From a virus, in IMG/VR virus record IMGVR_UViG_3300036861_000371, positions 1 to 45,563 of that record: a stretch of 45,563 nucleotides of DNA; one strand, written 5' to 3'. The notes below the pieces were generated by a model that was not told the DNA's origin, searched no databases, and saw only the letters and a list, made by a program, of their open reading frames with translations. Positions 7,766-26,244 of this stretch are shown here, piece after piece. Numbering within the stretch: position 1 is the first letter of the stretch; each line of letters opens with the position of its first letter. A program made the translations under genes and the position numbers.

Positions 7766-7905
7766 TGGGGGGACCTCTGAGAGAGAGGAGGACGATGGAG
7801 CCGGGACCAGGCCCGCATCTTGTGCGTCTTGTTGAGGTACATCTTGCGGGCGTTTTTCGAGCGGACGAGCTTGCCGCAGCCACAGGCACAGAGACGCTTG
7901 TCCAT
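7744..7905 (-). CDS. Small Cys-rich basic protein, 53 aa, possibly leaderless
   Basis: The ATG at 7905 opens a 53-codon frame that begins with a Lys/Arg-rich Cys-x-Cys-x-Cys-Gly-Lys cluster at residues 6-12, then a basic Lys-Asn-Ala-Arg-Lys-Met-Tyr-Leu-Asn-Lys segment. This resembles the small Cys-Gly-Cys-Gly zinc proteins common in phages. No ribosome site is seen. The predicted start of promoter P1 falls on or one base before the A of the ATG, so the mRNA may be leaderless. Its last 21 bases overlap the exonuclease start. Confidence 0.6.
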   Translation of the reverse strand: MDKRLCACGCGKLVRSKNARKMYLNKTHKMRAWSRLHRPPLSQRSPQWQRPLA

Positions 7906-7940
7906 GCAGGGAAAGTACGCAGGTTGGCAACGGCTGTCAA
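7905..7940 (-). promoter_or_regulatory. Predicted early promoter P1
   Basis: Minus strand: a perfect TTGACA (7940-7935), exactly 17 bases, then TACTTT (7917-7912). Transcription would begin at about 7905 and read the exonuclease, annealing-protein and origin genes. GCCGTTGNCA occurs twice in tandem around the -35 box. An AT-rich phased block lies directly upstream. This is the best promoter in the window. Confidence 0.82.
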
Positions 7941-8573: not shown

Positions 8574-9180
8574 TATATTGCAGTCATGGCATGGACACCA
8601 GAAAAAGCGCACGCCTACTACCTGGAACACAGAGAGCAGATCAAGCAGAAGGTGCGCGATCGGTATCGTGCTTTGGGGGAAACTGAATTGGCGCGTCGGC
8701 GTGAACTGCGTCTCAAGAACAGGGATCGAGTACTGGCGCAGAAACTCCGCTATCGAGAAACCCGCCGGGCCGAGCTGGTTCGGAAGGCCCTTGCCTGGAA
8801 ACAAGCCAATGCAGATCGATGGGCGCATAACATTGCTTTGGAACGGGCTCGCAGATTTGGCGTTGAGATCCGTCTCACAGCCAAAGCGTGGCTGGCCATT
8901 GTACAGCACTACAGAGGGCTGTGTGCTTACTGCGGGGGAGCTCCGCGCGTGAGGTGCGGCGTCGATCATTTGATCCCACTTGAACGAGGGGGACCGCACT
9001 CCATCGAGAACGTTCTTCCCGCCTGCGGTAAGTGCAACGCCAGCAAAAAGAACCGCACTCCACTGGAGTGGATTCTGAGTGGTGCGCCAAGATCTCATCT
9101 CACGTTCCGACTGCACGGGTCCATCGAATAAATCGATCCTCAGCTCGCATCGAACGGCGACGCGGATAACAACCCCACCC
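8574..9180. mobile_element. HNH homing-type insertion with replacement endolysin 3' end
   Basis: About 600 bp between the two homologous endolysin ends. It carries the only convincing plus-strand gene of the window (HNH endonuclease, 8586-9131) and, on the other strand, a complete 3' end for the endolysin. It is visibly richer in A/T than its flanks. The boundaries are set where the two endolysin ends stop matching, at the Gly-Trp-Gly codons; they are accurate to perhaps 10 bases. Confidence 0.7.
8586..9131 (+). CDS. HNH endonuclease (homing type)
   Basis: A 181-residue protein. Residues 1-95 are long, highly charged helices rich in Arg, Lys and Glu, probably DNA-binding. Residues 110-160 form a zinc-stabilised HNH nuclease: Cys-Ala-Tyr-Cys, then Val-Asp-His-Leu-Ile-Pro-Leu, Gly-Gly, Asn-Val-Leu-Pro-Ala-Cys and Lys-Cys-Asn-x3-Lys. 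The second Cys pair and the His and Asn of the beta-beta-alpha metal fold are all present. It runs against the direction of every other gene. A TATATT lies 7 bases before the start, but no good -35 box or ribosome site is seen. It overlaps the endolysin 3' end tail-to-tail by 32 bases. Confidence 0.92.
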   Translation: MAWTPEKAHAYYLEHREQIKQKVRDRYRALGETELARRRELRLKNRDRVLAQKLRYRETRRAELVRKALAWKQANADRWAHNIALERARRFGVEIRLTAKAWLAIVQHYRGLCAYCGGAPRVRCGVDHLIPLERGGPHSIENVLPACGKCNASKKNRTPLEWILSGAPRSHLTFRLHGSIE

Positions 9181-9588
9181 CTCCCTTGTAGCCCCGGCAC
9201 CGGGAGGCGCCGCATTGCCTTCAATCGTCAGGTACTCAGACCCCTGAACTTCCGCCACGAACCCGACATGCCCGAATCGCTTCAGCTCCGGATGCCAGAC
9301 GATGAAGAGATCGCCGGCGCCGGGAGAAAGCTCGAGGTAGTGATTCTGCTCGGCCCACTTCGCGAGTACCGCTACGCTGGCGGTCCGCGGGCATGGCCAT
9401 TGATAGCCGAGGGCCTGGCGCCCCACCTGGCCGACAAAGCAGGCGCACCAGGGGTACGCGCCCTTGGGGTCGAGGCCACACTCGCGCACGAAGTAGTCAA
9501 TCTCCACTCCCCGGTTGGAGCCCAGCGGCACTTCGCGCACCTGCAGGTAGCGCCGCGCTTCGGTGAGGACTCGCTCGACCAGCGTCAT
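9100..9588 (-). CDS. Endolysin with CHAP-like amidase/peptidase domain
   Basis: A 162-residue protein of the Cys/His peptidoglycan hydrolase type (CHAP-like). Pro-Trp-Cys-Ala-Cys-Phe-Val gives the nucleophile Cys48, Phe-Gly-His-Val-Gly-Phe gives His107, and Ile-Glu-Gly-Asn gives Asn125. There is no separate wall-binding domain and no signal peptide, so it would need a holin to reach the wall. The start is the ATG at 9588 in an ATGA overlap with the holin-like gene. The last 25 residues come from the HNH insertion; the older version survives at 8496-8573. The catalytic domain itself is upstream of the insertion and intact. Confidence 0.88.
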   Translation of the reverse strand: MTLVERVLTEARRYLQVREVPLGSNRGVEIDYFVRECGLDPKGAYPWCACFVGQVGRQALGYQWPCPRTASVAVLAKWAEQNHYLELSPGAGDLFIVWHPELKRFGHVGFVAEVQGSEYLTIEGNAAPPGAGATREGWGCYPRRRSMRAEDRFIRWTRAVGT

Positions 9589-10085
9589 TCGGTCGGCTCG
9601 ACGTCGCCGCCAATCTGGCGACGGGCCGCGACCTCAGCGTTGGCAACGGTTGCAGCGGTCTTGCCCAGTGCATCGACCGTGCCACCGCCTTTCGTCGACG
9701 CCCAGACCTTGAAGCCGGACAGGCCGAACGGCATCCCGAACACGAGCGCGGCGTAGGCCAGGAGCGCGGCGGTCATCAGCGCGCAGGACTTCACGAGCGG
9801 GTTCAGCGTGTCGACGCTGATCGGCACGATGCCCTTCGCCGCGAGGTTGGCGAGCCGCTGGACCGCCCCGCAGGTTTCGACCACCTCCTTGCCGAACATC
9901 GCGAGGCCCACGAGGCCGAACCCGAAGGCCACCGTCGAGAGGATCTTGCTGTGGTTGGGGCGGCCATCCCGATCGTTCAGGTCGAGCCAGTGAAAGGCCC
10001 AGGAGATGAGCGGGTCAACCGTTTTCCGCAGGACACGATTCAGGAGTCGGCGACGCTGAATGGCTTCCGCTTCACTTGTCGGCAT
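9585..10085 (-). CDS. Membrane protein of the lysis cassette, 166 aa
   Basis: The ATG at 10085 has GAGGA 6 bases upstream and overlaps the preceding gene by 14 bases. After an Arg-rich N-terminus there are two hydrophobic spans, about residues 49-70 and 100-127. The C-terminal 35 residues are polar. Its place directly before the endolysin suggests a holin or holin-associated protein, though 166 residues with a long N-terminal region is large for a typical holin. Confidence 0.7.
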   Translation of the reverse strand: MPTSEAEAIQRRRLLNRVLRKTVDPLISWAFHWLDLNDRDGRPNHSKILSTVAFGFGLVGLAMFGKEVVETCGAVQRLANLAAKGIVPISVDTLNPLVKSCALMTAALLAYAALVFGMPFGLSGFKVWASTKGGGTVDALGKTAATVANAEVAARRQIGGDVEPTE

Positions 10086-10302
10086 CGGCGTCCTCGCGTT
10101 TGCGGCTCGACCACCGGGTGATTTCGCCCACAATCCGGTAGAGCGCGCCCATCAGGCCGGCGAACACCAGGAGCCCCGCTCGAGTGACGACGAAGATGAT
10201 CTGGTCGCCTTCCTGCATGAAGCTCGCGAGCAGCGCGGCGAGGCCGGCCGCCAGGGCGAAGATGAGCGCGGCAAGATTCTTACTCCGAGTGGCCGGCTTC
10301 AC
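10072..10302 (-). CDS. Holin-like protein, 76 aa, two membrane spans
   Basis: GTG start at 10302, overlapping the upstream gene by 23 bases. Residues 9-30 and 36-58 are strongly hydrophobic, separated by a short Gln-Glu-Gly-Asp turn. The N-terminus is basic and the C-terminus is a charged Arg-Lys-Arg-Glu-Asp-Ala tail. Size, two spans and charged tail fit a class II holin, the protein that opens the inner membrane at the time of lysis. Assignment rests on topology and context. Confidence 0.7.
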   Translation of the reverse strand: MKPATRSKNLAALIFALAAGLAALLASFMQEGDQIIFVVTRAGLLVFAGLMGALYRIVGEITRWSSRKREDADADK

Positions 10303-10579
10303 GCGCTCGCCGTTCCCGCACCTCTCGCGCTTGCCGCTGCCGCTCGGCTTCCTCGAGGCTCTCGAGGCGCAGGTGGAGGCGGTCCTGGTCGGCGCGGTAG
10401 ACCTTCAACTCCTCAAGGAGGTCGCCCTGGATGTCGGCGATCTTGCCGGCGATCCACTCGCGGTCGTTGAACGAGAGGCCGGTCACGAGGCGGCGGCGGG
10501 CGAACAGCGAGACGGTGACGGGCACCGCGACCACGACGGCGGCGAGCACGATCGCCCAGGGTAAAAGGAGCGGGGTCAT
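10280..10579 (-). CDS. Membrane-anchored coiled-coil protein, 99 aa
   Basis: ATG at 10579 in an ATGA overlap with the giant gene. Residues 4-27 are one hydrophobic span near the N-terminus. Residues 45-99 are a Glu/Arg/Leu-rich coiled coil. The layout is that of a small inner-membrane spanin or a holin accessory protein. A second spanin-like protein lies after the endolysin, so which of the two acts as the inner spanin cannot be decided from sequence. Confidence 0.65.
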   Translation of the reverse strand: MTPLLLPWAIVLAAVVVAVPVTVSLFARRRLVTGLSFNDREWIAGKIADIQGDLLEELKVYRADQDRLHLRLESLEEAERQRQAREVRERRAREAGHSE

Positions 10580-13500
10580 GGGCGCATCCGGGGTGCCGCC
10601 ATCCGCGGCGCCCGCGGCGCACTGCGCCCGCCGCCGCCCCCAGTCCGCTTGCGGCTCAGGGTGGAAATCCAGAGACGCTGTTCCTCGGGCGTGCCCAGCG
10701 CGTAGACCTGTTCCGCCTGCTCGAGGCTCAGCGCCTTGAAGCGCGTCATCAGCGGCGGCTCCTGCATCTTGCGCAGCGCGTCGGCGACTTGGCCGGAACG
10801 CAGCCCGAGGGCCTGCAACTGACGCTGGGCCTCTTGGTAGTCGATGTCGCCGTTGCGGAAGGCTTCCGTGACCCGGTATCGCTGGTCACCCATCTCGACT
10901 TCCTCGGGCGTGCGCTGACCACGTTGCCGGCGCGAAAACTCAGCCATGAGGTTCTGGGCCGGCGTCGCCACGAATTCACGAGGAGCGGGACTGATGCCCG
11001 CAAACCCCGGCAGCGTTCCCAGCACGCCGGTTTCACCACGGCGCCGCGCCTCGGCAATGTTCTGCAGCGAGATGGGTTCGTTGCTCTTGGCCGTGAACGC
11101 CGCGATCTGCTCAAGCACCGTCGACCAGTCGGCCGTCGGGTCGTATACCTGGTCGCCGTAGTACGTCCGGTTCGTCCCGAGCGCGTAGGCCCAGTGCAGC
11201 CCCGGGCTGAGTTTGTTGCCGAGCGTCTGCCACGGATGGTGCGACCAGGCGTAGAGGTCGTGCATAATGTAGCCCGGCAGCCGGTAGCGATTCTCGTTGC
11301 CGGAGCGGTCTTTGGTTCCATCCCGGAAGGCGAGGAAGTCCTTGCCCTCCGGCCACTCGCCAGTCAGCAGATAGGTCAGCAGGCCGTTGAAGATCGCGAG
11401 CCCGGCGAAGGCCGCCAACCAGTAGCGCAAGCTCGAGGTCCCGATCGGCGGCAGGTTCTTCGCCCCACCGACCGCCTGACGCGCCAACCGACCCGCTTGC
11501 CGCACGCCCCGCGCCGCCAGCACAAGCGTGCCGCCCGTCCACCCGGGCGCGAGGAACACGAACTGCGCGAGGTCCTTCGCCACGTTGTTGATGAAGTGGT
11601 TCTCGTACTGCACCTGGCCAAAACGGTAGTCCATTTCCTTCACGATGTCGCCCATGACGCGCCGGACTTCTTCGATCGGCGTCCCCGCCGGCAGCTTCCG
11701 CAACGCCCGCTCGGCCGCGATGTAGGTCGCGAACGCCTTCTGGTGCGGCACGTAGAAGCCCATCGTCGGGAAGGACGCCCCCTCGATCGCCGCCCACACG
11801 GCATCGAACGGCACGCGGACGGCCCCTGAGAGTCGGCGCCCGAGGCTCTCCCCGTGCAGGGCATCCCGCAGAGCGGCCTTGAAGCGCGCCCGACGGTCGC
11901 CAGCCCACAACTCGCTGCGCCGGGTCGAGCGGAATCCGCCCTGGATCATCGCGTCGAGCACGCGGGCGAGCTCCGGGTGGGTGCCGCGCCGCTCGTACTC
12001 CTCCATGATGCGACGGCCGAGGATCGGCCCGCGCACCGCCACAACGCCCGCCTGCGGCAAGCGACCGAGCGCCGCCTCCGAGAACATCGCCTCTTGGGCG
12101 ATCACCGTGCCGTGGAAGCCTGAGAGTCCGAGGATCATCTGCGCCGCCGCTTGGCCCGGAGCCATCAGGGCATCATAGATCGCGTGGCCCCGCAGCCCGC
12201 GGGACAGCGCGTTGTTCCAGATCGCGGCCGACTGTGGCGGCGCGTAGAAGTGGCCCATGATGCGTCGGCCAAAGACCGGGATTTTCTCACCCTCCACCGT
12301 CATCTCGCGCGGGCCGTAGATCGTGAAGGCCGGATCGCGTCCGTCGCCCACGCGCACCCACTCGCCCGTGGCGTCAGTCGGCGGCTCCTGGCCGAGCATC
12401 ACCTTCTTGGCCCGGCCAGCGCGGAGTTCCTCGAGCACCATGCGGCGTCCGTCGATCGCCCGCTGCATCTCGGCAAACTTCAGCAGCTGCGAGTCGACGA
12501 AGTTGTAGGTCAGCGGCACGAGGCCAGCGCGCAGGCCGTCGGCGAATGCGTCGAACGTCCGATGCTTCGCGAACGTTTTCGGCCCCTCCAGCGGTCGACG
12601 CCCGAACACCCGGGCAAGGAAAGACTGCTGCTGCTTCGGCGTCCCTTTCCAGTAGCGCCCGACGTAGTGCGCGATGGTGGGCTCGAGAATGCCGAGATCC
12701 TCGAGGACCGCCGAGTACTGGGCGGTCAGCGCATGGAAGGCGTCGATGGCTCCCGGGGGAATGCCGAGGCGCTGCGTCCGCAGCCGTGTGCCTGGCGCAC
12801 CCCAGTGCTCGACATCATCCCACAGCTGCGCCGCCTGGCGCTTGGTGAGCCTGCCGACGGCCTTGGAGAGGGCCCGGAGCGACTCTTGGGCGCGGGTCAG
12901 TTCCATCGCGCCCCGGGCGCGGCCGGCGCGGATCGTTCCGGCGGTGGCCTTGGCGACCTCGCCGAAGGACTCGGGGTTGAACACGGCGCGCAGGGCCTCG
13001 ACCACCCGCGTCACGGAGAGCGGCGCGCCCCGACCTTCCAATCCGGCCGCCTCAGGGAGCGGGAGGTCTTTGTCGAGCTCCTCGCCGGCCGAGCCGATAG
13101 GGCCCGTCTCGGGCGGGACGTTCGGTGGGCCGTAGGGGGTCGACGGCTCGAATACTTGGTGCGCGATGGCCGGCTTCGCTTCGGGGACGGGGCGGAACGC
13201 CCCCTGCTCATACGCAGACAGCCAGCGCGGACGCTGGGTCGCCGCGTCCTGCGCGACTTGGAACACGTCGTTCACGCCTCGCACCCCGCGCAGTACCGTC
13301 GTGGCGCGGTGGAGCACTTCGCCGGGACCCACGACGACGTAGACGTGATCGGCGGCGAGCGCCGCGATCCGCTCCGGCAACCAGCGGTCGATGTCCTTCA
13401 GTGCGGCCGTCGTGTGCGGCTCGAGCGCGATACTCACGGCCTGGCCGTTCATGTACAGCACGTCGAAGCGGCCCTCGGGCAGGATGCCGCTCGTCGCCAC

Positions 13501-16500
13501 GATCAGGTCGGCCACATCCTCGCTGCGGATGTATCGCTCACCGCTATAAGCGATACCGCCGGCCTTGGCCTCGGGGCCGTGGGTCGCCGTCCAGTCCTGC
13601 GGGTCCGGCTCGCGGGGCACGGTGACTGGGTGGAGCTCAAACTGGTCGCCCAAGTGCTTGATGTAGGTGCCGGTGATGTCGTCAGTGACGAGGTGGCCGC
13701 GGAGCCGGAGGCCTTCGTCAGTGAGGCGCTTGCCGACGTAGCCCGTGATGGCGATGTCGTCGTCCGAGACAGTCGGGTTCCCGCTCGGGTGGTTGTGAAT
13801 CAACTCGGCCTCGGGCGCGCCGATTTCCTTCATGCGAGCGATGAGCACGTCGGCGAAGTCCTCCCGTATCTTCACCGCGTTGATCGCCCCGCTGGAATGC
13901 ATCTGGTGCTCGAGCACGGTGCCGTCAGATCCGCGCAAGGCGAAGTGGAATCGCTCGGTCGCCGGGCTGCGGAACGGCCACATGAGGCCGTGCAGTTCCT
14001 GCGGGGTCTGGGGGTTCTGGCCCTTGATCATCACCCAAGCTTTCGGCTCCGCCGCACGAGCCACCGCCGCCTCGCGGGCGACGGGATCGAGCGGCACGGG
14101 GCGCGGCTCACCGAACAACTCCAGCTGCGCCATGCGGCCCGCTTCGCGCACCACCTCGAGCGCCGCGGCCTTCCCCTGCTCGGCACTGCCGAAGGTGATC
14201 GCCGTATGCTGGCCGAGGTTCGCCTCGATCCCTGCGTAAGGTTTCGGCTCGAGCAGGGTATGCGCCCCGCCCTGATGGAGTTCCTGCCGGAACGCCCGGG
14301 TGGCCGCCACCTGCTGTTCCGGTCCTCCGGTGTAGGTGCGGAACGGGATGCCGCGGCGCCGGAGAATGTCGGTCACGGCCGGGGGGGCGTCCTCGGGAAT
14401 CACGGCCCCCGCGAATTCGTCGAAGTGGACGGGGCGCGGCGGCTTGCCCTCGAAGTACGAGACCGGCATGTCCATGATCGCCGAGGCGATCGTCACGCCA
14501 TCGTCGACGAGCTCGGCCGGCACGTCCTGAAACCCCTCGCGCTCCAACTCGCGACGCAGGGCGGTCGCCGTGCGTCCGCGCTTCATAGCCGCAGCTCCCC
14601 AGCGCCCGATGGCGCGATGCACGGCGTCGAGCCCTTCCCAGACCTGGCCGAAGGCCCCGCCTCGATAGGCGTCCGGGCGGTAATACTGGACGATGGCCGT
14701 CCGCCACTCGTCCTGCGCATCCTCGAACAGCTTCCGCGCCGCCTCGACTTCGGCCTTCGGCCGCACGCCCGCCTCGACCGCGTTGCGCAGCCAGGCCAGG
14801 TCGGGGATGCGTCTCGCCATCGCCGCCCGGGCAGCCCCCGGCCCGAACGTCATGCCCCCCTCTTTCCCGGGGACGACATCGGTCGCCGCCGCGACATTCT
14901 CCAAGGTGTATGGCACCTTGCGGCGCCCCAGTCGCACGGACGGCGTGCCAAGCAACGGTTTGACCTGCTCGTCGAGCCAGTCGTGGAAGCCCGTCTCGCT
15001 GGGCGTCGCCTTCTTCAGCACCTTCTCCGTGCGGCCCCGATCCACTTCTCGTGTGCCGATGCGCGCCTGGTCGTCCATGATGCGATCGCCATGCGCGAAG
15101 TGGAGTTCCGGCTCCGGTCCTTCCTCGAACATGTTCTCCATCGCGCCGTGCCGGGCGATCGCTCGGTGCTCGGGGTCCTTGTACTCTTGGACGAGATGCT
15201 GCTCGACCGCCTCACGAGCGGCTGCGCTGAGAGCCCGCCAGTACTCGTCGCCCGGGCGCGCTCCGTGGTCGACACCACGCTCGGCGAAGAAATCACGCAG
15301 TGCCGGCGCTCTCGAAAGCGGATAGCGCAGCGGCGTGGCCCGCATCCGCGGCTTCGCGGCGATCCCCTGCTCTGCGAGATAAAGGGCGCGGGCTGCGAGC
15401 GAGCGACGCAGCAGACTCTGCACTTCGGCGGGTCGGGGCCCCGTCGCCCGGTTGACGAGTTCGTCCCAGACCTGCGAAACGACGTGCCGCTCGTCGTAAA
15501 TCTCCGTGCCGGGCCGCAGGCGGTCGACGAATCGCTGCGCCACGGCGCTGCGCACCTTCGGGTACTCGGGTGGCGGATTGCGGCCGGTGTAGGCGTCCGA
15601 GGGATAGATCGGCGTCTGCGTCGGATCGGCGAGTTCGCGCTTGCCGATGAGCGTGATGGGACCGTAGCCCTCGAGGCCCTGCTGCTCGGGCACGATGGCA
15701 AGCGACGGCGCGGGCAGTCCGCCGAGACGGTCCGCGGCAGTTAGGTTCTCCGCGCTCAGGTTGTGCAAGGCAGACAGGCGTGGTGCCGGCACATCGGCGA
15801 CTGATTCGGGTTCCGCTGTGGGCGGTTGCGGCTCGCCCACCTGGCCCCGTCGCCCGAGTTCGGCCTGCAGCGCCGCCACGTCTCGGCGGACCTTCTCGGC
15901 ATACGGCTGCATCTCGGCAGGCCACTGCGGACTCTCGGCGAGTGCCGCCCGCGCCCTGTCGAGTAGCCGCTGCAGCGATGCCGGTTCCTCGAGACGCAAG
16001 TTGACGCCGGGCATACTCGGCAGCGGGACCGCCCCGTAGGCTTGCCGCTTCGGCTCGCCGGTCTGCATCCCCCGGCGTTCCTCGGTGCGCTCGTACAGAT
16101 CGTCGATGGTGACGCCGCGCCGCTGGAGCTCCTGCTCGACCTCGCCCATCAGCCGGCCCGCCGTCTTGACGGTGCCGATCGCTCGCCCGGCCTTGCCCGT
16201 CACGGCGGTGCCGCTCACCACGCCCTCGCTGCCCGAATCGCCGCCGCCCGTCTTGCGGCGCGCCCAGCCCATGATCCCCTTGCCCGCTACCTGCTGTGCC
16301 GCATCAATGCGGTCGACGAGCTCCAGCCAGCGGGCCTCGAGGTCAGCGTTCGACATCTTCGCGTACTTGGGGTTCGACTCCGGCACCGCTTCGGGGTGCG
16401 GACCACGACCACGCTTCGGCTTGCGACCACCGGCGGGTTCCTGCGGTTCGGTGCGGAGCGGCTCCGGGGCCGGGGCTTCAGTCGCCTCAACTGGTACAAC

Positions 16501-18276
16501 TGGTACAGGCGGTACAGCTGGTACGGTCGGCCGGGCGGCTGGCGCTGGAGCCGCCGAGGCGCGATAGCGTGGATTGCCTTCTGGGTCGTAGGACCGCTCG
16601 ACCAGGCCTGCCTCGACGAGTCGCCCGATCGCGTCTCTCGGCTCCGTCGTGGCGGGACCACGACCACGGGGCGTCCGGCGGTAGGAGCGAACAATCTCGG
16701 GAATCGTCAGCCCGGGGCGTCGCTCAATGATCTGCAGCAAGTGCGTGGCGAGTGGCCCGACCTGCTTGTTGAGTTCGGCCTCACGCTCGCCGCGTGTCAC
16801 TTGCTGCCCCGGTGCGGGCGCTGCCTGCTCCTCTGCCTGGCGCAGTCGGTCGGCCGTCGTCTCGATGCGCGCCGGCGGCGGGGCGACAACCTCCGGCGTC
16901 GGCTCGGGCGGCACCCGGGCCGCGCCACCCGTCTCGCGTCGGAGAAACTCCTCGGGTGTCGGCGTCGGCGGCACCCGCTCCCGTTCCTGGCGCGCCGCAA
17001 AACTCTGCTCGTAAGGCGGCGTCTGGGAGAGTTCGGGATGGGTCGGACCGGGCGGCAGACCCCGGGGCGAAATCGGGGTTTCGACACGGGGGGCAGGCAC
17101 GACCGCCTGAGGCGGCGTTTGCGGCCTCGGAGCCGGTTGGGGCCGTTCTGGCACAGGGACTGGCTCCGGCGTCGCTGGGGCTGGAGCGGGCGCAGGCGCT
17201 GGCCGTTCTGGCGGTGGTTGGGCAGGCTGGCGTGGCTGGGCGGTCGCGGCCTGCCGCGCCGCTGCCCGCCGACGGTCCTCCTCGGCCCGGATCTCCCGCT
17301 CAGCTCGCGCCTGCTCGGCCTGGCGCGCCGCCCGTTCGGCCCGCGCCGACGGTTTGGCTCCCAGTTCCCGTAGCGCCGCCTCCTTGGCTTCGTTGGCCCG
17401 CAAAAAGTCGAGCGAGGTCTGGAGCTGGTCAGCCGACCCGCCGCGCCGCACCCGTTCTTCGGCCGGCACGTCGGGGTGGGTTCGCTGCGCCGCTTCCACG
17501 TAGGCGCGCTGCACGTCCTCCACCGTGGCCGTGGTACGGTCCAACCCGAGGTCGGCGAAGGGGTCGGTGCCTGGTGCCGGACGGGGCGGCTCAGGCCGTG
17601 GCGCGCCCAGCCGCGGACGCGCTGGCTCCGGCCCCCGACCGAGTTGCGGCGGCGCTGCTGCGGCAGGGGTGCGACCCGGCACCAGGTCCCGCAGTCCGTA
17701 GGCCAGCATCGCCGACTGCCCGAACGCCTCCGGGTCGCCGAAGCCGGCGCGCTCGAGCGTCGGGAACGGATTGAGTCCCTGCAGAAACGTCGCGCCGGCC
17801 GACGGCTCCGGTGGCTGGCCTGCAGCCGCTCGAGCGACGGCTTGGCGCGCCATTTCCTCGCGGTAGGCCGGGCCGGTGAAGCCGCTCCCCACCGCCTCCA
17901 AGCCCCCACGCACAAAGCCCGGGATGCCGCGGATGAGTTCCAGCGCGCCCAACGCGCCACCGACGGCCGCCGTCCGAGGTGAGGGATGATAGACGGGCCC
18001 GCCGATGCGGCCAGCGCGGATCGGCTCGGCGGTGGCGATGTCCTGGGCGGCTTCGTTGGCTGGGTAGAACACGCCGCGCACGTTCTGGTACTGCGGCTCG
18101 GCCATCTCACCGACGGCGGCGTGCCGCGCCATGAGCAGCTGGTCGAGCCGCTGCCGGACGCGATCTAGCGGCGGGCTGAGTTCGGGAGCGGCCTCGGGTT
18201 CGAGTCCTGCGAGCGAGTCGAGTTGCTGGCGGACACGATCGAGCGACGGGCGGACGGGCGCGACGGGAGGCGCCAC
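10576..18276 (-). CDS. Giant virion-associated polyvalent protein with J-domain and JAMM domain, 2,566 aa
   Basis: The largest gene, 17 percent of the genome. The start is the GTG at 18276. In order: two short Leu-Asp-Arg-Val-Arg-Gln repeats (11-20, 36-45); a Gly-rich hydrophobic segment (103-135); a J-domain-like helix with His-Pro-Asp at 267-269; a charged coiled coil (305-345); Pro-rich linkers to about 500; a winged-helix-like region (505-575); a JAMM metalloprotease signature with His1494, His1496, Ser1504 and Asp1507 in a RadC-like His-Asn-His-Pro-Ser-Gly setting; and helical regions with two hydrophobic stretches (about 2234-2256 and 2284-2306). Its place between tail and lysis genes fits proteins ejected into the host with DNA. 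Polyvalent proteins of this kind often carry several enzymatic domains against host defence (family knowledge). The specific roles are inference. Confidence 0.8.
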   Translation of the reverse strand: MAPPVAPVRPSLDRVRQQLDSLAGLEPEAAPELSPPLDRVRQRLDQLLMARHAAVGEMAEPQYQNVRGVFYPANEAAQDIATAEPIRAGRIGGPVYHPSPRTAAVGGALGALELIRGIPGFVRGGLEAVGSGFTGPAYREEMARQAVARAAAGQPPEPSAGATFLQGLNPFPTLERAGFGDPEAFGQSAMLAYGLRDLVPGRTPAAAAPPQLGRGPEPARPRLGAPRPEPPRPAPGTDPFADLGLDRTTATVEDVQRAYVEAAQRTHPDVPAEERVRRGGSADQLQTSLDFLRANEAKEAALRELGAKPSARAERAARQAEQARAEREIRAEEDRRRAAARQAATAQPRQPAQPPPERPAPAPAPAPATPEPVPVPERPQPAPRPQTPPQAVVPAPRVETPISPRGLPPGPTHPELSQTPPYEQSFAARQERERVPPTPTPEEFLRRETGGAARVPPEPTPEVVAPPPARIETTADRLRQAEEQAAPAPGQQVTRGEREAELNKQVGPLATHLLQIIERRPGLTIPEIVRSYRRTPRGRGPATTEPRDAIGRLVEAGLVERSYDPEGNPRYRASAAPAPAARPTVPAVPPVPVVPVEATEAPAPEPLRTEPQEPAGGRKPKRGRGPHPEAVPESNPKYAKMSNADLEARWLELVDRIDAAQQVAGKGIMGWARRKTGGGDSGSEGVVSGTAVTGKAGRAIGTVKTAGRLMGEVEQELQRRGVTIDDLYERTEERRGMQTGEPKRQAYGAVPLPSMPGVNLRLEEPASLQRLLDRARAALAESPQWPAEMQPYAEKVRRDVAALQAELGRRGQVGEPQPPTAEPESVADVPAPRLSALHNLSAENLTAADRLGGLPAPSLAIVPEQQGLEGYGPITLIGKRELADPTQTPIYPSDAYTGRNPPPEYPKVRSAVAQRFVDRLRPGTEIYDERHVVSQVWDELVNRATGPRPAEVQSLLRRSLAARALYLAEQGIAAKPRMRATPLRYPLSRAPALRDFFAERGVDHGARPGDEYWRALSAAAREAVEQHLVQEYKDPEHRAIARHGAMENMFEEGPEPELHFAHGDRIMDDQARIGTREVDRGRTEKVLKKATPSETGFHDWLDEQVKPLLGTPSVRLGRRKVPYTLENVAAATDVVPGKEGGMTFGPGAARAAMARRIPDLAWLRNAVEAGVRPKAEVEAARKLFEDAQDEWRTAIVQYYRPDAYRGGAFGQVWEGLDAVHRAIGRWGAAAMKRGRTATALRRELEREGFQDVPAELVDDGVTIASAIMDMPVSYFEGKPPRPVHFDEFAGAVIPEDAPPAVTDILRRRGIPFRTYTGGPEQQVAATRAFRQELHQGGAHTLLEPKPYAGIEANLGQHTAITFGSAEQGKAAALEVVREAGRMAQLELFGEPRPVPLDPVAREAAVARAAEPKAWVMIKGQNPQTPQELHGLMWPFRSPATERFHFALRGSDGTVLEHQMHSSGAINAVKIREDFADVLIARMKEIGAPEAELIHNHPSGNPTVSDDDIAITGYVGKRLTDEGLRLRGHLVTDDITGTYIKHLGDQFELHPVTVPREPDPQDWTATHGPEAKAGGIAYSGERYIRSEDVADLIVATSGILPEGRFDVLYMNGQAVSIALEPHTTAALKDIDRWLPERIAALAADHVYVVVGPGEVLHRATTVLRGVRGVNDVFQVAQDAATQRPRWLSAYEQGAFRPVPEAKPAIAHQVFEPSTPYGPPNVPPETGPIGSAGEELDKDLPLPEAAGLEGRGAPLSVTRVVEALRAVFNPESFGEVAKATAGTIRAGRARGAMELTRAQESLRALSKAVGRLTKRQAAQLWDDVEHWGAPGTRLRTQRLGIPPGAIDAFHALTAQYSAVLEDLGILEPTIAHYVGRYWKGTPKQQQSFLARVFGRRPLEGPKTFAKHRTFDAFADGLRAGLVPLTYNFVDSQLLKFAEMQRAIDGRRMVLEELRAGRAKKVMLGQEPPTDATGEWVRVGDGRDPAFTIYGPREMTVEGEKIPVFGRRIMGHFYAPPQSAAIWNNALSRGLRGHAIYDALMAPGQAAAQMILGLSGFHGTVIAQEAMFSEAALGRLPQAGVVAVRGPILGRRIMEEYERRGTHPELARVLDAMIQGGFRSTRRSELWAGDRRARFKAALRDALHGESLGRRLSGAVRVPFDAVWAAIEGASFPTMGFYVPHQKAFATYIAAERALRKLPAGTPIEEVRRVMGDIVKEMDYRFGQVQYENHFINNVAKDLAQFVFLAPGWTGGTLVLAARGVRQAGRLARQAVGGAKNLPPIGTSSLRYWLAAFAGLAIFNGLLTYLLTGEWPEGKDFLAFRDGTKDRSGNENRYRLPGYIMHDLYAWSHHPWQTLGNKLSPGLHWAYALGTNRTYYGDQVYDPTADWSTVLEQIAAFTAKSNEPISLQNIAEARRRGETGVLGTLPGFAGISPAPREFVATPAQNLMAEFSRRQRGQRTPEEVEMGDQRYRVTEAFRNGDIDYQEAQRQLQALGLRSGQVADALRKMQEPPLMTRFKALSLEQAEQVYALGTPEEQRLWISTLSRKRTGGGGGRSAPRAPRMAAPRMRP

Positions 18277-18280
18277 CGGG

Positions 18281-19348
18281 TCACCGCCCCGCTTGGCGCA
18301 GTGCCGTGTCTACGTCGCCCGGGTCGTAGCCCTCGCGCAGCAGCATCGCCCGGATCTGTTCGGTGCGGACCGTTTGGTACTTCGGCAGCCGCAGGAGCGC
18401 CGCGAGCTGTTCCACCTGGCCGCCGGGCGCGGCGGCGGTGGTCGTGTCCTGTGGTGCTTGGACCGGGGCACCGACGGCGGCAGGAGCCGCACTCGTATCG
18501 GCGGGCGCGGCGTAGGCCTCGGGCCGGAACCCTCGCGCCTGCTGATGCCCGCGAGCCGGCGACCCGCCGTAGAAATGCTCGCCGGTGTCCTCGGGCGGGC
18601 GCTCGTCCTCCCCGACCTGGATGTCCTCGGGCTTGAGCGACCCCTCGTGGAGGCGCTGCGCCAGCGCGAGCCGCTCGCGAGCCGGCACCCGGTAGCCCGC
18701 AAACTTCCCGTCGGGTCCGACGATGGTCATCAGGTCGTCGACGATCTTCGTCGCTTCCGGCAGGGTCAGCTGCGTCCGCGCTGCGGGCGTCGGGTACTTC
18801 GCCCGGAGCCGGGCCTCCGTCGCAGCCAACGCTTCGCGACGCTTGATCCCTTCGGGCGACAAGGGGTCGATGTCCCGCGGCGCTCGGTAGGTGGGAGGCT
18901 GGACCATGCCGGAGCCGTACAGCAGTGCTTCCTCGTCCGATGGGTCGACGCCGGCATTCCGGCCCAGGAGTTCGCCAGCCCGCTGCGCCATCGTGGCTTC
19001 GGTCGAGAGGGGGGCGTTGAGTCGCGTCGGCGGTTTCCCGCCCAGATACTGGCCCGGCGTGCGGAAGCCCGTCGGGGCCTGCAGGTAGCGGCCGACCTCC
19101 TGGCGCAGGCCCTGCACGCGACGGTACTCCTGCTGCTGCTCGGCGAAGGTCGTCGCTTCCTGTTCGGCCCGCGTCGCGGCGCGAGAGGCCTCGGCCTCCT
19201 GGCGTCGGGACTCGAGTTGCCGCAGGGTCAGCAGCTCGTCCTCGAGCCGGGCGCGCCGTCGGTTCGAGCGGATGTTCTCCTTGAACGCATAGCCGCGCTC
19301 GCCGCCTTCGACGAGGCCCTCGAGCAGGCCCGCCCAGGCGTCACTCAT
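18281..19348 (-). CDS. Putative internal virion protein, coiled coil, 355 aa
   Basis: ATG at 19348 (ATGA overlap). Residues 25-85 are a long Arg/Glu/Gln coiled coil. Residues 90-260 are mixed with many Pro. Residues 265-320 are an Ala/Pro/Thr linker, and the last 35 residues are a helical Gln-Leu-Ala-Ala-Leu-Leu region. No enzyme motif is seen. Lying between the small virion genes and the giant polyvalent protein, it is probably another internal or ejected protein, by analogy with the helical internal core proteins of podoviruses. Confidence 0.65.
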   Translation of the reverse strand: MSDAWAGLLEGLVEGGERGYAFKENIRSNRRRARLEDELLTLRQLESRRQEAEASRAATRAEQEATTFAEQQQEYRRVQGLRQEVGRYLQAPTGFRTPGQYLGGKPPTRLNAPLSTEATMAQRAGELLGRNAGVDPSDEEALLYGSGMVQPPTYRAPRDIDPLSPEGIKRREALAATEARLRAKYPTPAARTQLTLPEATKIVDDLMTIVGPDGKFAGYRVPARERLALAQRLHEGSLKPEDIQVGEDERPPEDTGEHFYGGSPARGHQQARGFRPEAYAAPADTSAAPAAVGAPVQAPQDTTTAAAPGGQVEQLAALLRLPKYQTVRTEQIRAMLLREGYDPGDVDTALRQAGR

Positions 19349-19842
19349 GCGAGTTCGTCGATGTTGCCGTAGGTCGCATCCGACGCCCCGGCCCCACCAC
19401 CTAACTTCCCGCTGATGTCGTAACCCGCCTTGGCGCCCGCCGGGCCGCCCGCGAAGAACCCGATTCCTGCACCGAGTACGCTCCCGACGGCCTTCAGTAA
19501 CGCTCCCCGTCGCCGACGCCGCGCCTCATCTTCGGCAAACTTCTGCCGCCGCGCCGCCAATCCCCCCTCGAGGCCAGCCGCGCTCGCCTGCTTGGCGTAG
19601 GCCCCGATCATCGCGCCGTACTTGCCCGCCACGTCGCCCAGTGCCACGGTCGTGCCGCCCGAGCGCAGCCCACCGATTTCGTTGAGCCCACCGAGCGTCG
19701 ATCCGACCTCTTTCAGAAACTCGGGCTTCAGCGCCTCGCCGTACCCCTGCACGCCCTCGCGCAAGTACTCCTGCGCCTCAGGCACATACGAGAACGGGCT
19801 GTCGACGGGGCGACCCTTGGCATCGCGGGTCAGGCCGGGCAT
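19345..19842 (-). CDS. Putative internal virion protein with Gly-rich hydrophobic segment, 165 aa
   Basis: The start is the ATG at 19842, one base overlapping the previous stop; a TTG one codon earlier is possible. Residues 85-110 are a highly basic Arg-rich helix. Residues 112-140 are a Gly/Ala-rich hydrophobic segment of the glycine-zipper type (Ala-Gly-Ile-Gly-Phe-Phe-Ala-Gly-Gly) that could insert into membranes. Such segments occur in ejection proteins that help DNA cross the envelope. Assignment is by feature and position only. Confidence 0.65.
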   Translation of the reverse strand: MPGLTRDAKGRPVDSPFSYVPEAQEYLREGVQGYGEALKPEFLKEVGSTLGGLNEIGGLRSGGTTVALGDVAGKYGAMIGAYAKQASAAGLEGGLAARRQKFAEDEARRRRRGALLKAVGSVLGAGIGFFAGGPAGAKAGYDISGKLGGGAGASDATYGNIDELA

Positions 19843-20294
19843 CAAATGCCTCCCGACTGTGAGAGGACGTGCGCCTCAAAAGCCGAGATGCCGAGCCGGA
19901 GCAGATCCTGCTTCCGTCGCTCAGCGCGCTCCGGTGAGATGTCGGCGTTGCGCATCAGACCGCCGCCGAGCCGGGTCAGGGCCTCGCCGATCGCGGCGTT
20001 GACCATCGCGTCGTCGCCTTCGGTGTCGGCATCGGGATCTTCGGGCGGGGCGCTGCCGGTGCCGCTCTGGCCCGCGCCGCCGGTGCGGATGGCCCCAAGC
20101 CGACGCAGGTGGTGGCTCTCGTCGATCGAGGTTGCTCCGACGTAGCTGTACGGCTCCGCGCCCTGGTCGGGCGTCGGGCGGCCCATCGGGGAGCCGGGCA
20201 GGCCCGCCGGGGCCATGCGGAGCATCCGGCCCACCTGCCGCGGGTCCGGGGCGGGTTGCTGTGGGAAGGGGCTGAAGCCGAAACCTGAGCTCAT
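19842..20294 (-). CDS. Hypothetical virion-region protein, 150 aa
   Basis: ATG at 20294 (ATGA overlap). The first 90 residues are Pro/Gly-rich and look disordered. Residues 95-150 are helical and begin with an acidic stretch (Asp-Ala-Asp-Thr-Glu-Gly-Asp-Asp). No domain is recognised. Its neighbours suggest a virion-associated role. Confidence 0.65.
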   Translation of the reverse strand: MSSGFGFSPFPQQPAPDPRQVGRMLRMAPAGLPGSPMGRPTPDQGAEPYSYVGATSIDESHHLRRLGAIRTGGAGQSGTGSAPPEDPDADTEGDDAMVNAAIGEALTRLGGGLMRNADISPERAERRKQDLLRLGISAFEAHVLSQSGGI

Positions 20295-20788
20295 GGTTGT
20301 GCTCGCAATGTACGAAGTTGGAGGCTGACACGCGACAATTCCGGGTCCAGAGCCCCGTCGCCGATCACGCGAATCTCCACCTGCTGGTCGAGGCCTGTGG
20401 GGATGATCGTCGTCCAGGCACCCGCGACGGTCGCCGCCCCGGCCCCGGCCATCGCCACCCGGGCGAGCTCCTTCGAGTTGGTCAGGTCGTACACCGTGAC
20501 CTGCACAGGCCCGGCCGCGGTGGCGTCACCGCGAACGACGACCCGCACCTGATCGACGCCCGCATCAGAGAAATCGAGAAACACCCGGCTGAACGCCAAC
20601 GCCGTGCCCGCCCCGGCCGCTGCGTTCGTGACCACATACGGGGTCGCCTCGGCCAAGAGACACACGTCGGTGAGGCTGACCATCTTCCCGAGCAACGCCC
20701 GCAGCGTGTCGACCACTTTGCGCAAGGGGCCCGGCTCCGGCCGTTCGGCAAACTCGACGACGGTGCCCCGCCGCTCGCTGGCACTCAT
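20291..20788 (-). CDS. Beta-rich structural protein, 165 aa
   Basis: ATG at 20788 (ATGA overlap). Residues 1-40 are charged and helical. From residue 48 the sequence alternates hydrophobic and polar residues in short strands (Val-Arg-Val-Val-Val-Arg, Val-Gln-Val-Thr-Val-Tyr, Val-Glu-Ile-Arg-Val-Ile), typical of a jelly-roll or beta-sandwich. It is co-expressed with the next gene, which has a similar build; both may be small tail or capsid-surface proteins. Confidence 0.7.
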   Translation of the reverse strand: MSASERRGTVVEFAERPEPGPLRKVVDTLRALLGKMVSLTDVCLLAEATPYVVTNAAAGAGTALAFSRVFLDFSDAGVDQVRVVVRGDATAAGPVQVTVYDLTNSKELARVAMAGAGAATVAGAWTTIIPTGLDQQVEIRVIGDGALDPELSRVSLQLRTLRAQP

Positions 20789-21201
20789 CGGAACGCCCGC
20801 CGCTCGACGGGATAGAACTCGGCCCCCGAGAACTGCACCGCCGCGTCGTAACTCGTCACTTCGACCTTCACCTGAAAGTCCGATCCAGGATCGTTCAAGG
20901 GCACGATCATCAGCGGCGCCTCCCCGACGCCGAGCGTTCGGCTAATCACCGTGCTCTCGCCGCCGTCGCGAATCGCCGTGAAGCGCACCGTCACGGCACC
21001 CGTGTGAGCCACCTGCTGCACCAACCGGCGCAGCTTGTAGTAGGCCGCGAGGCGGCCGAGCCGCAGCGAATTGGTGACGTAGAACGGCACGAAGGCTGTG
21101 CCGCCCGTCCCGTCGAGCGCCGCCGAGTCCTTCACCACCGCCGGATCGTCAAGGCTGAAGATTTTGCCCCCCACCGCCTGAAAGCCGTAGAAGGGGATCA
21201 T
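20785..21201 (-). CDS. Beta-rich structural protein, 138 aa
   Basis: ATG at 21201 (ATGA overlap). The chain is mostly predicted beta strands with a central Arg-rich helix (Leu-Arg-Leu-Gly-Arg-Leu-Ala-Ala-Tyr-Tyr-Lys-Leu-Arg-Arg-Leu). The second half alternates hydrophobic and polar residues. No named family comes to mind. Following directly on the large tail protein gene, it is probably a minor tail component. Confidence 0.7.
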   Translation of the reverse strand: MIPFYGFQAVGGKIFSLDDPAVVKDSAALDGTGGTAFVPFYVTNSLRLGRLAAYYKLRRLVQQVAHTGAVTVRFTAIRDGGESTVISRTLGVGEAPLMIVPLNDPGSDFQVKVEVTSYDAAVQFSGAEFYPVERRAFR

Positions 21202-23153
21202 GGAGCCTCGAAGGTCACGGTGTCGACCTGGCAGGTCGCCGGCCCGCCGCTGAACAGGGCGTAGGTCACCCGCAGCCGCAGGTCCGTGTAGTCGGTGATG
21301 CTGTCCGCCTGGCCGCCGGTCAGCGTGTACTCGTAGTCGCGGAAGGTGCTGTCGAGGTTCGAGGTCGAGAGCGTCGCCTTGACGACCGCGCCCTGCATCA
21401 GCTCCACGGTGAAGCTGTCCGAGGCCGTGCCGGCCGCAAGGCGCGCTCGAGCGCGGATGATGTGGCCCACGTTGGTCGAGCGGTCGGTGACGTTCGCGAG
21501 GCCCACGGTGAAGGCCTTGGACCCCGACACCGGCACCGTGTTTTGGGTGTAGTCCTCGAAGTGGTTCGGGTACTCGTCGAGCAGCTGGTAGAGTGGGGCC
21601 GAGCTCCAGCCGTCGGCATTGTCGACATCCGAATCGGGCTGCGCGATCTGAATCGCGAGGGTCGTGACGCTCTGGTCAGCGGTGTAGGCCGAGAACACGC
21701 CGTTCTTCTTGTGCCGGACCCGCCACTGGTAGGCGTTCGTGGGTTTCCGGCCCGTCACAACGTAGGTCGCCACGCCCGCCGCCACGGTGGTTTTCAGGTT
21801 CCAGGACCCGCCGCCGGTGACATCCTTCTCCCAGTACTCCGTCTCGGCCGTCGCGTCGCCGTTCGTCCAGTTGGCGGTCCAGCCTTGGCTATGGATCAGC
21901 GTGGTCGACGGGGCGCTCGGGCCCGCGCTCGGGCCCTGGGCCGAAGTCGACGCCACCGTCACCGCCGAGAAAAAGCGCACCGACGAGCCCGTCACCTTCC
22001 AGTCCGGTTGCCACACCTGCCGCGCCGTGTCCCAGGCGAGCAGCACCCAGGGGTAGCTCGTATCCGGTGCGCCAGCCGTGACGTGGACGCCGAACAGCAC
22101 TAGGCGGCGCTCGGGGTGGTAGCGCACCCACGCCAAGTCCAGCCGGTCGATGCCCTGCCACGTCGATTGCCGCGGCCCCATCAGCGAGTCGACGCTGAAC
22201 CCGTCGGTGCGGAACGGCCCCTCCTTCCCGATGCCGTACCAGTAGCCCTCGGCCTGCTCGAGCGCGAGCGGGTTCTCGATGCCGTAGCCGTGCGTGTTCT
22301 GCACCCCCTCGACCTGGTACTGCCAGCCCGGGTAGGCGCGCCCGAAGCCCGACACCCGGTAGATCTCGTTCGCCTTGGCGACGAGCAGCAGGCCGCGGCC
22401 CTTCTTCATGCCGGTCACCCGGTCGTCCTTCGCCCCGATCGTGTTGTAGGCGTCCTTGTCGAACCCGTCGGCGGCGTAGGGGGACCTCGCGAGGAAGCTG
22501 TGTCGCACGAGCGCCGGCGCATCGGGATTCGTCTCGTCGCCGTACCCGGCCATGAACAGGACGTTGTTGTACTCCTCGACGCAGTAGGGCTTCGGGATTG
22601 CGGCCGCGCCGGCGGATGGGTCGAAGTCGAACGTCTGGGTGATGATGCCGGGCGGGATCACGGCGTCGATCTCGACCATGTGTTTGCGGCTGGAGTAGTT
22701 CGGGTCGGCATCGCTGACGTAGAGCTTCTCGAACAGGCTGGCGAACACGGGACGCCCCGGACTGCTGACCTGCCAAGTGCCCGTGCCCGCCGGGAACACG
22801 GTGCGCGAGAGCGCCTCCGAGGCCCCCGCAAACGCCATGTCGGAGGTCAGCGCGTAGGCGTAGTGCTTGTCCTGCGTGTCCGACCAGCCGATGACGACGG
22901 CGCCCGTCTTGGCTTTCGGTGCGCCGCCCAGCACATGCGTCAACTCGGCCGGCGTGCCCTGGTCGTCGTGCAGCGTGAGCACGATGCGCGAGCCGCCTCG
23001 GGTCGCGAGCCGCGGTGCCCGCTCCGGCACGAGGTTCTCGCCCGCCGCCAACGTCCCGCGAGGGATCAGCGACGGGTCGTCGACGTTCTCGATCACCCCG
23101 GCGATCCAGGGCGGGTGTGGGAGCGGACGCGCCAGGAGATTGGTGGGGCTCAT
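21198..23153 (-). CDS. Large tail (nozzle/tubular-like) protein with fibronectin-like domain, 651 aa
   Basis: ATG at 23153 (ATGA overlap); earlier in-frame codons lie in another gene. Residues 10-400 look like a multi-bladed beta structure with repeated Gly-Tyr-Gly, Trp and Tyr motifs, among them Glu-Ile-Tyr-Arg-Val-Ser-Gly-Phe-Gly and Asp-Gly-Phe-Ser-Val-Asp-Ser. I associate this with podovirus tail tubular B or stabilisation proteins that line the DNA exit channel. Residues 411-498 form a fibronectin type III-like domain, and 505-651 a second beta-sandwich. The last two may bind the cell surface. The call rests on composition, size and position. Confidence 0.7.
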   Translation of the reverse strand: MSPTNLLARPLPHPPWIAGVIENVDDPSLIPRGTLAAGENLVPERAPRLATRGGSRIVLTLHDDQGTPAELTHVLGGAPKAKTGAVVIGWSDTQDKHYAYALTSDMAFAGASEALSRTVFPAGTGTWQVSSPGRPVFASLFEKLYVSDADPNYSSRKHMVEIDAVIPPGIITQTFDFDPSAGAAAIPKPYCVEEYNNVLFMAGYGDETNPDAPALVRHSFLARSPYAADGFDKDAYNTIGAKDDRVTGMKKGRGLLLVAKANEIYRVSGFGRAYPGWQYQVEGVQNTHGYGIENPLALEQAEGYWYGIGKEGPFRTDGFSVDSLMGPRQSTWQGIDRLDLAWVRYHPERRLVLFGVHVTAGAPDTSYPWVLLAWDTARQVWQPDWKVTGSSVRFFSAVTVASTSAQGPSAGPSAPSTTLIHSQGWTANWTNGDATAETEYWEKDVTGGGSWNLKTTVAAGVATYVVTGRKPTNAYQWRVRHKKNGVFSAYTADQSVTTLAIQIAQPDSDVDNADGWSSAPLYQLLDEYPNHFEDYTQNTVPVSGSKAFTVGLANVTDRSTNVGHIIRARARLAAGTASDSFTVELMQGAVVKATLSTSNLDSTFRDYEYTLTGGQADSITDYTDLRLRVTYALFSGGPATCQVDTVTFEAP

Positions 23154-24208
23154 GCGGCGATCTCGTCCCAGCAGGCGTAGCCGCGCATGTCGGTGCCCGA
23201 CCCTTGCACGAGGTAGGCGAGCGCCAGTGCCGACCCCGGCACGACGGTCCACGGGAACCCGCCGGGCATCCGGTCCCAGTGCGGTGTGCGGTGGTCGGTC
23301 GACTCCCGAGAGGGCAACCCGAGCCACTGCGCTTTCGTCTCGTCGCCCATCGCAGCCAGCGTGTCGCCGATGCCGTTGTTCGTGAAGTTCATGCCGCGCA
23401 GCACGCCCGCAATCGCCGTGGCGTCCGTCTCGTCGAGCCGGAAGGCGTTCGCGATCTTCTGCGTCCCACCGCCGCCCAGCGTGAACGGGGTAGTCGTGCG
23501 CACCATGCTGTTCATCGCGCCGGCGCTCGGCTGGTCAGACCCACCACCCGCCAGCCCCAGCTCGTAGACCCGGAGATTCACCCCCGACCCCAGCGGGTTC
23601 TCCAACTGGACGATGGGCCCGCCGTTCGTGCTGCCTGGCGTCAGCACCTCGGCGTAGATCGGCGACACCGGCGTGATGGCGCTGTCCACGCCGGCTTGGT
23701 TGTTGGCCGCCTCGTCCCAGACGCCATAGATCCGCATCGTCTTGTCGGCGCCGTTGGTGTCGAAGGAAAACTCGAGCGCCGAGAGCGGGGCCACGACGAG
23801 CGGGAAGGCCCGCCGCTCGCGCACCGTCACCGGGTCCCACTTGGCTTGCCCCGACCAGGCCGGCTGCCCCGACCAGTGCGCCGCCGATTCGGCAATGATC
23901 GACCCGACATCGGGCGCGCCCCGTAGGAGGCCGTTGATGGCCGTGGCGTCCAGCTGGTTCAGCCGCCGAGCGGCTGCGGACTTCAACCCGCCCGACCCAC
24001 CGAGGTCGACGGGCGAGGCCGTGCGCTTCATGCGGATGATTGGGACGCCGGCAATCGGGTCGGCCCCGATCGTGGCTTTCAGCTCGTAGACGTAGAGGTT
24101 CTTCGAGCCGTTTGTGTTCTTGAGTTGGATGTAGGCCGGGTGGCTCGCGTCACCGGCGACCCGGATGCACCCGATGACGGGCGACACCGGCAGCGTCTGG
24201 ACGCTCAC
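23150..24208 (-). CDS. Tail protein of two tandem homologous domains, 352 aa
   Basis: GTG at 24208 (GTGA overlap). The protein is a duplication. The first half (about 1-170) and second half (about 180-352) share Gly-Gly-x3-x-Arg-Leu-x-x-x-Asp-Ala-Thr-Ala-Ile, a Leu-Arg-Gly segment, and an ending of the type Tyr-x-x-Trp-Asp-Glu-x-Ala. The preceding gene (24205-25020) ends in a third copy of the same domain. The domains are beta-rich, with Leu-x-Val-Tyr-Glu-Leu strands. A trimeric fibre or tail decoration is likely (inference). Confidence 0.75.
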   Translation of the reverse strand: MSVQTLPVSPVIGCIRVAGDASHPAYIQLKNTNGSKNLYVYELKATIGADPIAGVPIIRMKRTASPVDLGGSGGLKSAAARRLNQLDATAINGLLRGAPDVGSIIAESAAHWSGQPAWSGQAKWDPVTVRERRAFPLVVAPLSALEFSFDTNGADKTMRIYGVWDEAANNQAGVDSAITPVSPIYAEVLTPGSTNGGPIVQLENPLGSGVNLRVYELGLAGGGSDQPSAGAMNSMVRTTTPFTLGGGGTQKIANAFRLDETDATAIAGVLRGMNFTNNGIGDTLAAMGDETKAQWLGLPSRESTDHRTPHWDRMPGGFPWTVVPGSALALAYLVQGSGTDMRGYACWDEIAA

Positions 24209-25020: not shown

Positions 25021-25024
25021 GGGC

Positions 25025-25342
25025 TCAGCCCTTCTTGTCGGCGGGAGGCTCTGCGGGCTTCGGCGGGTTCGCGGCGTCCCAGGCGGCGCAGGCCGTCTGG
25101 TCGAGCAGCGTCAGACGGTTGCCCTCGAGGTTGGCGTTGGAGAACACCTTCACGCCGTGGCCGGTCAGGATGCCGATCATGCATGCCTGCATCCGCTGCT
25201 TCAACTCGTCGATGGCGCGGCTGTATTCCTCAAGCGCCTCGACCTGCTCGGGCTTCAGCGTGACCTTGACCTCACGGGGCGTGGGCCGCTTCGTGGCCTT
25301 GATCGCGGCGGCGCGCTTCAGGACGCGGAGGTTGGCTCTCAT
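25025..25342 (-). CDS. Hypothetical basic protein, 105 aa
   Basis: ATG at 25342 in an ATGA overlap with the fibre-like gene. The N-terminal 25 residues are very basic. The middle is an acidic helix with Glu-Ala-Leu-Glu-Glu-Tyr-Ser-Arg-Ala. The C-terminus is a Pro/Lys tail. It sits between two fibre-like genes that share an N-terminal module, so it may be a chaperone or a connector for them (inference). Confidence 0.65.
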   Translation of the reverse strand: MRANLRVLKRAAAIKATKRPTPREVKVTLKPEQVEALEEYSRAIDELKQRMQACMIGILTGHGVKVFSNANLEGNRLTLLDQTACAAWDAANPPKPAEPPADKKG

Positions 25343-26241: not shown

Positions 26242-26244
26242 GGC

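Follow-up and report, generated by a model that had tools for sequence, protein, structure and literature searches.

A giant polyvalent protein of a short-tailed phage with a predicted J-domain

In the viral DNA analysed here (the window, a stretch of 45,563 nucleotides), a single gene beside the virion genes encodes a protein of 2,566 residues. A sequence-only reading likened this protein to the internal proteins that podoviruses eject and saw in it a J-domain-like segment. The locus thereby raises the question of whether a short-tailed phage injects a giant protein equipped to recruit the host chaperone DnaK.

The giant gene and its slot

The giant gene (P0001) occupies window 10576..18276 on the minus strand. 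It is composed of 2,566 codons without a stop, begins with GTG 4 bp past the stop codon (18281) of the upstream gene, and displays one coding-like pattern of GC by codon position over its full length. The coordinates and the length in the sequence-only reading are both right. A 195-bp direct terminal repeat with one mismatch is present at window 1-195 and 45369-45563, so the 45.5-kb record is probably a complete genome and the share of one sixth (7.7 of 45.5 kb) ascribed to the gene is fair.

The gene lies between tail and lysis genes, as had been claimed. Upstream on the same strand are the terminase, a P22-type portal, the major head protein, and a conserved tail module spanning 18281-27287. 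The part of this region next to the giant gene (18281..23327, minus) contains tail and internal-protein genes that comparison shows to be common to related phages, and its segment 21198-23327 shares 44-47% identity with relatives. The lysis cassette downstream (9100..10579, minus) encodes two small membrane proteins (10280-10579 and 10072-10302, minus) and a CHAP-domain endolysin (9100-9588, minus). The phage is short-tailed. Elsewhere in the window, a putative phage metallopeptidase (42984-43553, minus; PF18894, E=9e-28) is adjoined by a C5-cytosine methylase-like gene (43624-44457), and a YqaJ-like viral recombinase/exonuclease is encoded at 6794-7930 (minus; E=5e-21).

Two giants of known phages occupy the same slot. 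By tblastn, gp32 of Cobetia phage Carin1 (2,854 aa) and the giant of Acinetobacter phage Ab9 (2,839 aa) are homologous to the window protein over about residues 789-1343, with about 30% identity. Both follow the tail nozzle, small internal proteins, and a lysozyme, and precede the tailspike and lysis genes, which supports the proposed likeness to ejected podovirus proteins. However, the two giants contain neither a J-domain nor RadC by Pfam. In place of these come LPD22, a GNAT domain, and further regions, and the N- and C-terminal parts of both giants are unrelated to the window protein by BLAST.

In phages with related capsid genes, whose major head proteins are 64-76% identical to that of the window, the slot is mostly occupied by unrelated proteins. 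The occupant has 1,269 residues in G056 (portal 69% identical), 1,419 in G007, 2,072 in G005, and 1,376 with an LPD38 domain in G010; other phages carry two shorter proteins. None of ten records with related capsid genes matches the giant protein. Between near relatives the entire content of the slot is swapped in a mosaic manner, a pattern that injected effectors caught up in an arms race would be expected to show. Side by side with window 10576-18276, the unrelated replacements lie at L154:893-4699, L017:1352-5608, L018:3748-7875, and L015:4761-10976, although portal and head are about 45-76% identical.

Peptides taken from the complete sequence and from its C-terminal third brought up no close relative of the whole protein in viral contigs, and a search of genome contigs returned one distant relative only. 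The C-terminal third has no relatives in viral-contig peptide searches, profile tiling, or Pfam searches of pieces. A relationship of this third to LPD38 was rejected for lack of an LPD38 match by Pfam, though one phage of the group (L018) possesses LPD38.

Domains and class of the giant protein

The best-defined part of the chain was overlooked in the sequence-only reading. Residues 834-979 (15340..15777, minus) form a PBECR5 domain (PF18814, E=1.9e-18), scoring 67.7 bits against a cut-off of 25. A histidine in the N-terminal helix and a Thr/Ser at the C-terminal site are conserved in alignment A2. PBECR domains are predicted RNases (PMC5512222). The domain belongs to a wider conserved module, residues 830-1345 (14242..15789, minus), in which PBECR5 is followed by a region ending in the YFEGKPPRPVHFDEFAGAVIP block. 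A profile of the module matches proteins at 79 distinct viral loci among the best 80 of 153 matches, and many of these proteins are giants of 2,400-5,500 aa.

Residues 1436-1532 (13681..13971, minus) constitute a RadC-type JAB/JAMM domain. The Pfam RadC profile (PF04002) matches with E=5.8e-8 on the whole protein and 8.4e-10 on the isolated piece, scoring 33-39 bits against a cut-off of 22.1. The motif HNHPSGNPTVSDDD at residue 1494 provides the full H-x-H-x7-S-x2-D signature, in which HNHPSG is followed by S-x2-D as in the RadC family. Unlike that family, the window protein contains a lone JAB domain within a giant chain, and the NCBIfam RadC match (E about 4e-6 over the domain) stays under the full-length cut-offs. 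The JAMM signature had been called complete, and it is; it had also been called that of a protease. Because the motif belongs to the RadC family, a protease is unproven, and we dropped the strict "JAMM protease" reading in favour of a RadC-type JAB. The substrate of the RadC clade is unsettled. Iyer et al. 2017 (PMC5512222) argue that the clade lacks the groove for the ubiquitin tail and that its targets are nucleic acids or nucleotides.

A giant chain in which RadC comes after PBECR5, encoded next to virion genes, has the build of the polyvalent proteins (Iyer et al. 2017, PMC5512222), a known class that was missed together with PBECR5. The genes for such proteins neighbour virion genes, and their products are believed to be packed into the particle and injected along with the phage DNA (PMC5512222). 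The window protein shares with the PBECR5 giants its very large size, its place beside virion genes, and the combination of a PBECR domain with other, unrelated enzymatic domains, and its module 830-1345 is homologous to theirs. The large polypeptide combines at least two biochemically unrelated domains (PBECR5, RadC, and the J-domain described below), and its gene has virion genes nearby: those for the portal, the major head protein, and the conserved tail, all upstream and on its own strand. The protein is a polyvalent giant of this class with an added J-domain; the main text of the 2017 paper mentions no DnaJ, DnaK, or J-domain (PMC5512222). That paper places RadC only in polyvalent proteins of conjugative elements, whereas here it occurs in viral giant frames: 7 of the 44 viral records tested carry it in the same open frame as PBECR5. 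Loci with RadC-JAB and PBECR5 in one polypeptide are L039, L040, L056, L061, L062/L063, L066, and L070.

The remaining regions are less sharply defined. Residues 309-494 (16795..17352, minus) are a Pro/Ala/Arg-rich linker that is probably disordered, judging from its composition. Residues 495-625 (16402..16794, minus) probably form a winged helix: MarR/winged-helix families alone match them in Pfam and MarR-type proteins are their sole matches among PDB sequences. This agrees with the winged-helix-like region proposed earlier, which E-values of 0.005-0.14 leave suggestive. Hydrophobic segments had been reported near the end of the protein; one of them is clear, a probable membrane-spanning segment at residues 2285-2306 (11359..11424, minus) in the orphan C-terminal third, and the others are not apparent. 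Pfam identifies no zincin metallopeptidase in the 2,566-residue protein, and no polymerase or transglycosylase domain was found in it. Permissive profile tiling of other giants gave weak, overlapping matches in the linker, which is of low complexity. Since controls with reversed and with shuffled sequence also produced matches, down to E=8e-5, only the PBECR5-module and RadC matches from the tiling were accepted.

The N terminus contains a duplicated motif, LDRVRQQLD (residues 12-20) and LDRVRQRLD (37-45; together 18142..18243, minus), whose score was reached by 0 of 60 shuffles. The motif is absent from the other ORFs of the window. Many of the giants compared here start with two copies of a short motif that differs from phage to phage, for example TFDDLWNAP/TFDDLWNTP in L064 and SIIESARKA twice in L091. 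An N-terminal duplication is present in 13 of 58 giants at p<=0.02, with about one expected (L017, L018, L042, L048, L062, L064, L065, L066, L068, L070, L085, L087, and L091), and the motifs were not found in the N termini of other ORFs at the same loci. One idea is that the duplication serves as a docking or packaging signal.

The J-domain and its Hsp70-binding determinants

The J-domain spans residues 238-308 (17353..17565, minus), with a His-Pro-Asp (HPD) tripeptide at 267-269. HPD occurs once in the 2,566 residues, against a chance expectation of about 0.2. On the whole protein, Pfam gives a weak DnaJ match (241-277, E=0.033). On the isolated piece, DnaJ (PF00226) is the sole family listed up to E=10, with E=4.3e-4, 20.8 bits, and an alignment to profile positions 3-55 (53 of 63 positions). 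The DnaJ model alone, searched against the whole genome, matches the segment with E=1.5e-5. The scores of 20.8-21.1 bits fall below the Pfam gathering cut-off of 27.8 bits and mark the domain as divergent, though the E-values are 4e-4 and 1.5e-5; the cut-off is a curation threshold and not a defining feature of the J fold. Against PDB sequences, the 71-residue segment yields 27 matches; bar one or two, 26 of these either are J-domain chains, by annotation or as known ones, or contain such a chain, and the best 13 are all J-domain proteins.

Structure prediction, which the sequence-only reading had named as the test that could refute a J-domain, recovered the helix pair. An AF2 model of the 71 residues, built from a two-row alignment only (the second row being a sequence from a phage with related capsid genes), has a pLDDT of 84.9 and a pTM of 0.69, and its helices 15-28 and 45-70 flank the HPD. 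The order helix II, HPD loop, helix III is that of the J fold. The 21 best Foldseek matches of the model are all J-domains, the best with E 0.02 and probability 1.00. By VIA, the model superimposes on 6rzy with Z 7.8 and an rmsd of 2.7 over 63 residues, where unrelated rows reach Z 5.2, and it gives Z 6.9 to the DnaK-bound J-domain of 5nro. An earlier single-sequence AF2 model of 104 residues (pLDDT 75) had non-significant Foldseek results in which J-domains were mixed with unrelated matches, an ambiguity that the shorter two-row prediction resolves.

The segment could instead be a chance similarity in Ala/Arg-rich sequence, or the gene product might not be a virion protein at all. The sub-threshold Pfam score fits such an explanation, as does an N-terminal third without relatives outside the J segment. 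Yet the isolated-piece and genome-level E-values, the near-exclusive J matches among PDB sequences, the confidently predicted fold, and the occurrence of another J-like domain in a giant of the equivalent slot all speak against it, and we regard it as very unlikely. The presence of a J-domain, as the sequence-only reading proposed, is highly probable.

Binding of DnaK is a separate matter. In E. coli DnaJ, DnaK is contacted by the basic residues K26-R27 of helix II. Aligned with Thermus DnaJ 2, the phage protein has RAYVEAA where DnaJ 2 has RAYKRLA, with V-E in place of this K-R. The loss bears on function more than on membership of the fold, and stimulation of DnaK may therefore be weak. The 1,419-residue slot protein of G007 (L017:1352-5608, minus) contains a J-like domain as well, recognised by a profile match (22.5 bits, E=4.9e-6). 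There the basic residues are kept, and HEA stands in place of HPD. Each of the two J cases found is thus without one half of the canonical Hsp70-binding determinants.

This pattern would be expected if DnaK binding were unselected. The injected polyvalent protein could then carry its J-domain as a helical adaptor, degenerate or put to a new use, for binding some other protein of the virion or the host without driving the Hsp70 cycle. Both the V-E replacement here and the loss of HPD with retained basic residues in the related phage are in keeping with an adaptor. On the other hand, HPD is fully intact in the window protein although it is otherwise easily lost, and the long Pro-rich linker after the J-domain would correspond to the layout of recruiter-type J-proteins. 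We consider an adaptor a minority possibility. Recruitment of DnaK by the phage J-domain is a possible hypothesis, with HPD intact and helix II altered to V-E, and the chance that such recruitment is productive seems slightly short of even.

Probable ejection and the possible use of DnaK

Packaging of the protein in the particle and its injection are likely. A precedent for size is the vRNAP of N4, about 3,500 aa: when folded, the enzyme would not fit through the tail by which it is ejected, and refolding is thought to take place in the cell (PMC12633501). Like N4 gp50 and the T7-like ejection proteins, the window protein would be a giant stored in the head and released through a short tail; unlike them, it has no polymerase or transglycosylase domain, and no sequence relation to them was detected.

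The reading that we favour, with modest confidence, is that of an ejected protein with several effector domains, whose J-domain enlists host Hsp70 either to refold the chain or to pull it inward. The polyvalent protein would be packed in the head alongside the internal (ejection) proteins and would leave it before the DNA or together with it. The duplicated N-terminal motif, as a docking site, and the orphan C-terminal third, which is partly membrane-seeking, may hold it in the virion and the ejectosome. In the cytoplasm, PBECR5, a predicted metal-independent RNase, and RadC/JAB would be early-acting effectors, and DNA binding, going by the families matched, may fall to the winged helix. The J-domain, near the N terminus and followed by a linker of about 190 Pro/Ala/Arg-rich residues, would be well placed to catch DnaK in the cytoplasm. 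As the chain emerges, the recruited chaperone could pull in or refold a protein threaded largely unfolded through the narrow tail. Alternatively, DnaK might be brought to a target.

DnaK might also be needed before ejection, on the nascent chain, to keep the 2,566-residue protein soluble until packaging. For the J-proteins of jumbo phages, a part in folding and assembly is predicted (PMC7824862), which lends some weight to such a function. Giants of equal or larger size, however, exist without a detectable J-domain: none of the 79 PBECR5 records (from the best 80 of 153 matches) has a J match in a giant, and the one weak, partial match, in G013, lies in a separate 323-residue frame. A J-domain is therefore not a general need of ejecting giants, and a role in assembly is unlikely.

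Phage J-proteins are already known as free proteins. Rki of phage RB43 binds DnaK (PMC3486835) and, like the window protein, contains a J-domain with HPD. It suggests a further use of the domain, as an effector that diverts host DnaK after injection, for instance by stabilising a heat-shock factor or disturbing host proteostasis, and the adjacent predicted RNase and RadC domains are effector-like too. However, Rki, which belongs to the type III J-proteins, was studied as a free protein made in the cell (PMC3486835), whereas the J-domain here is a module of a giant, probably a virion protein injected in low copy, and is without the helix-II basic pair. No substrate region was recognised in the giant protein. 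Diversion of DnaK is slightly less probable still than a role in assembly.

A J-domain inside a polyvalent giant is new here, and the literature covered by our search, which was incomplete, yielded no description of an ejected phage protein with a J-domain. The DnaJ part in the DNA polymerase of HMO-2011-type phages is the central (zinc) domain, not a J-domain (PMC9038755).

A putative chaperone-recruiting module is added to the known parts of polyvalent proteins, and RadC domains are shown in viral giants. For N4 vRNAP, the literature leaves open how very large ejected proteins get through a tail of 3-4 nm and gain activity (PMC12633501). For at least some phages, a built-in J-domain would be a concrete, testable answer, with the classical loss-of-function mutation at hand in HPD. 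More speculatively, some short-tailed phages may carry their own Hsp70 recruiter in an ejected giant, and the captured DnaK would be both ratchet and refolding machine, possibly drawing the particle contents in. If HPD-dependent recruitment of DnaK during ejection is true, the J-giant would be of much greater interest.
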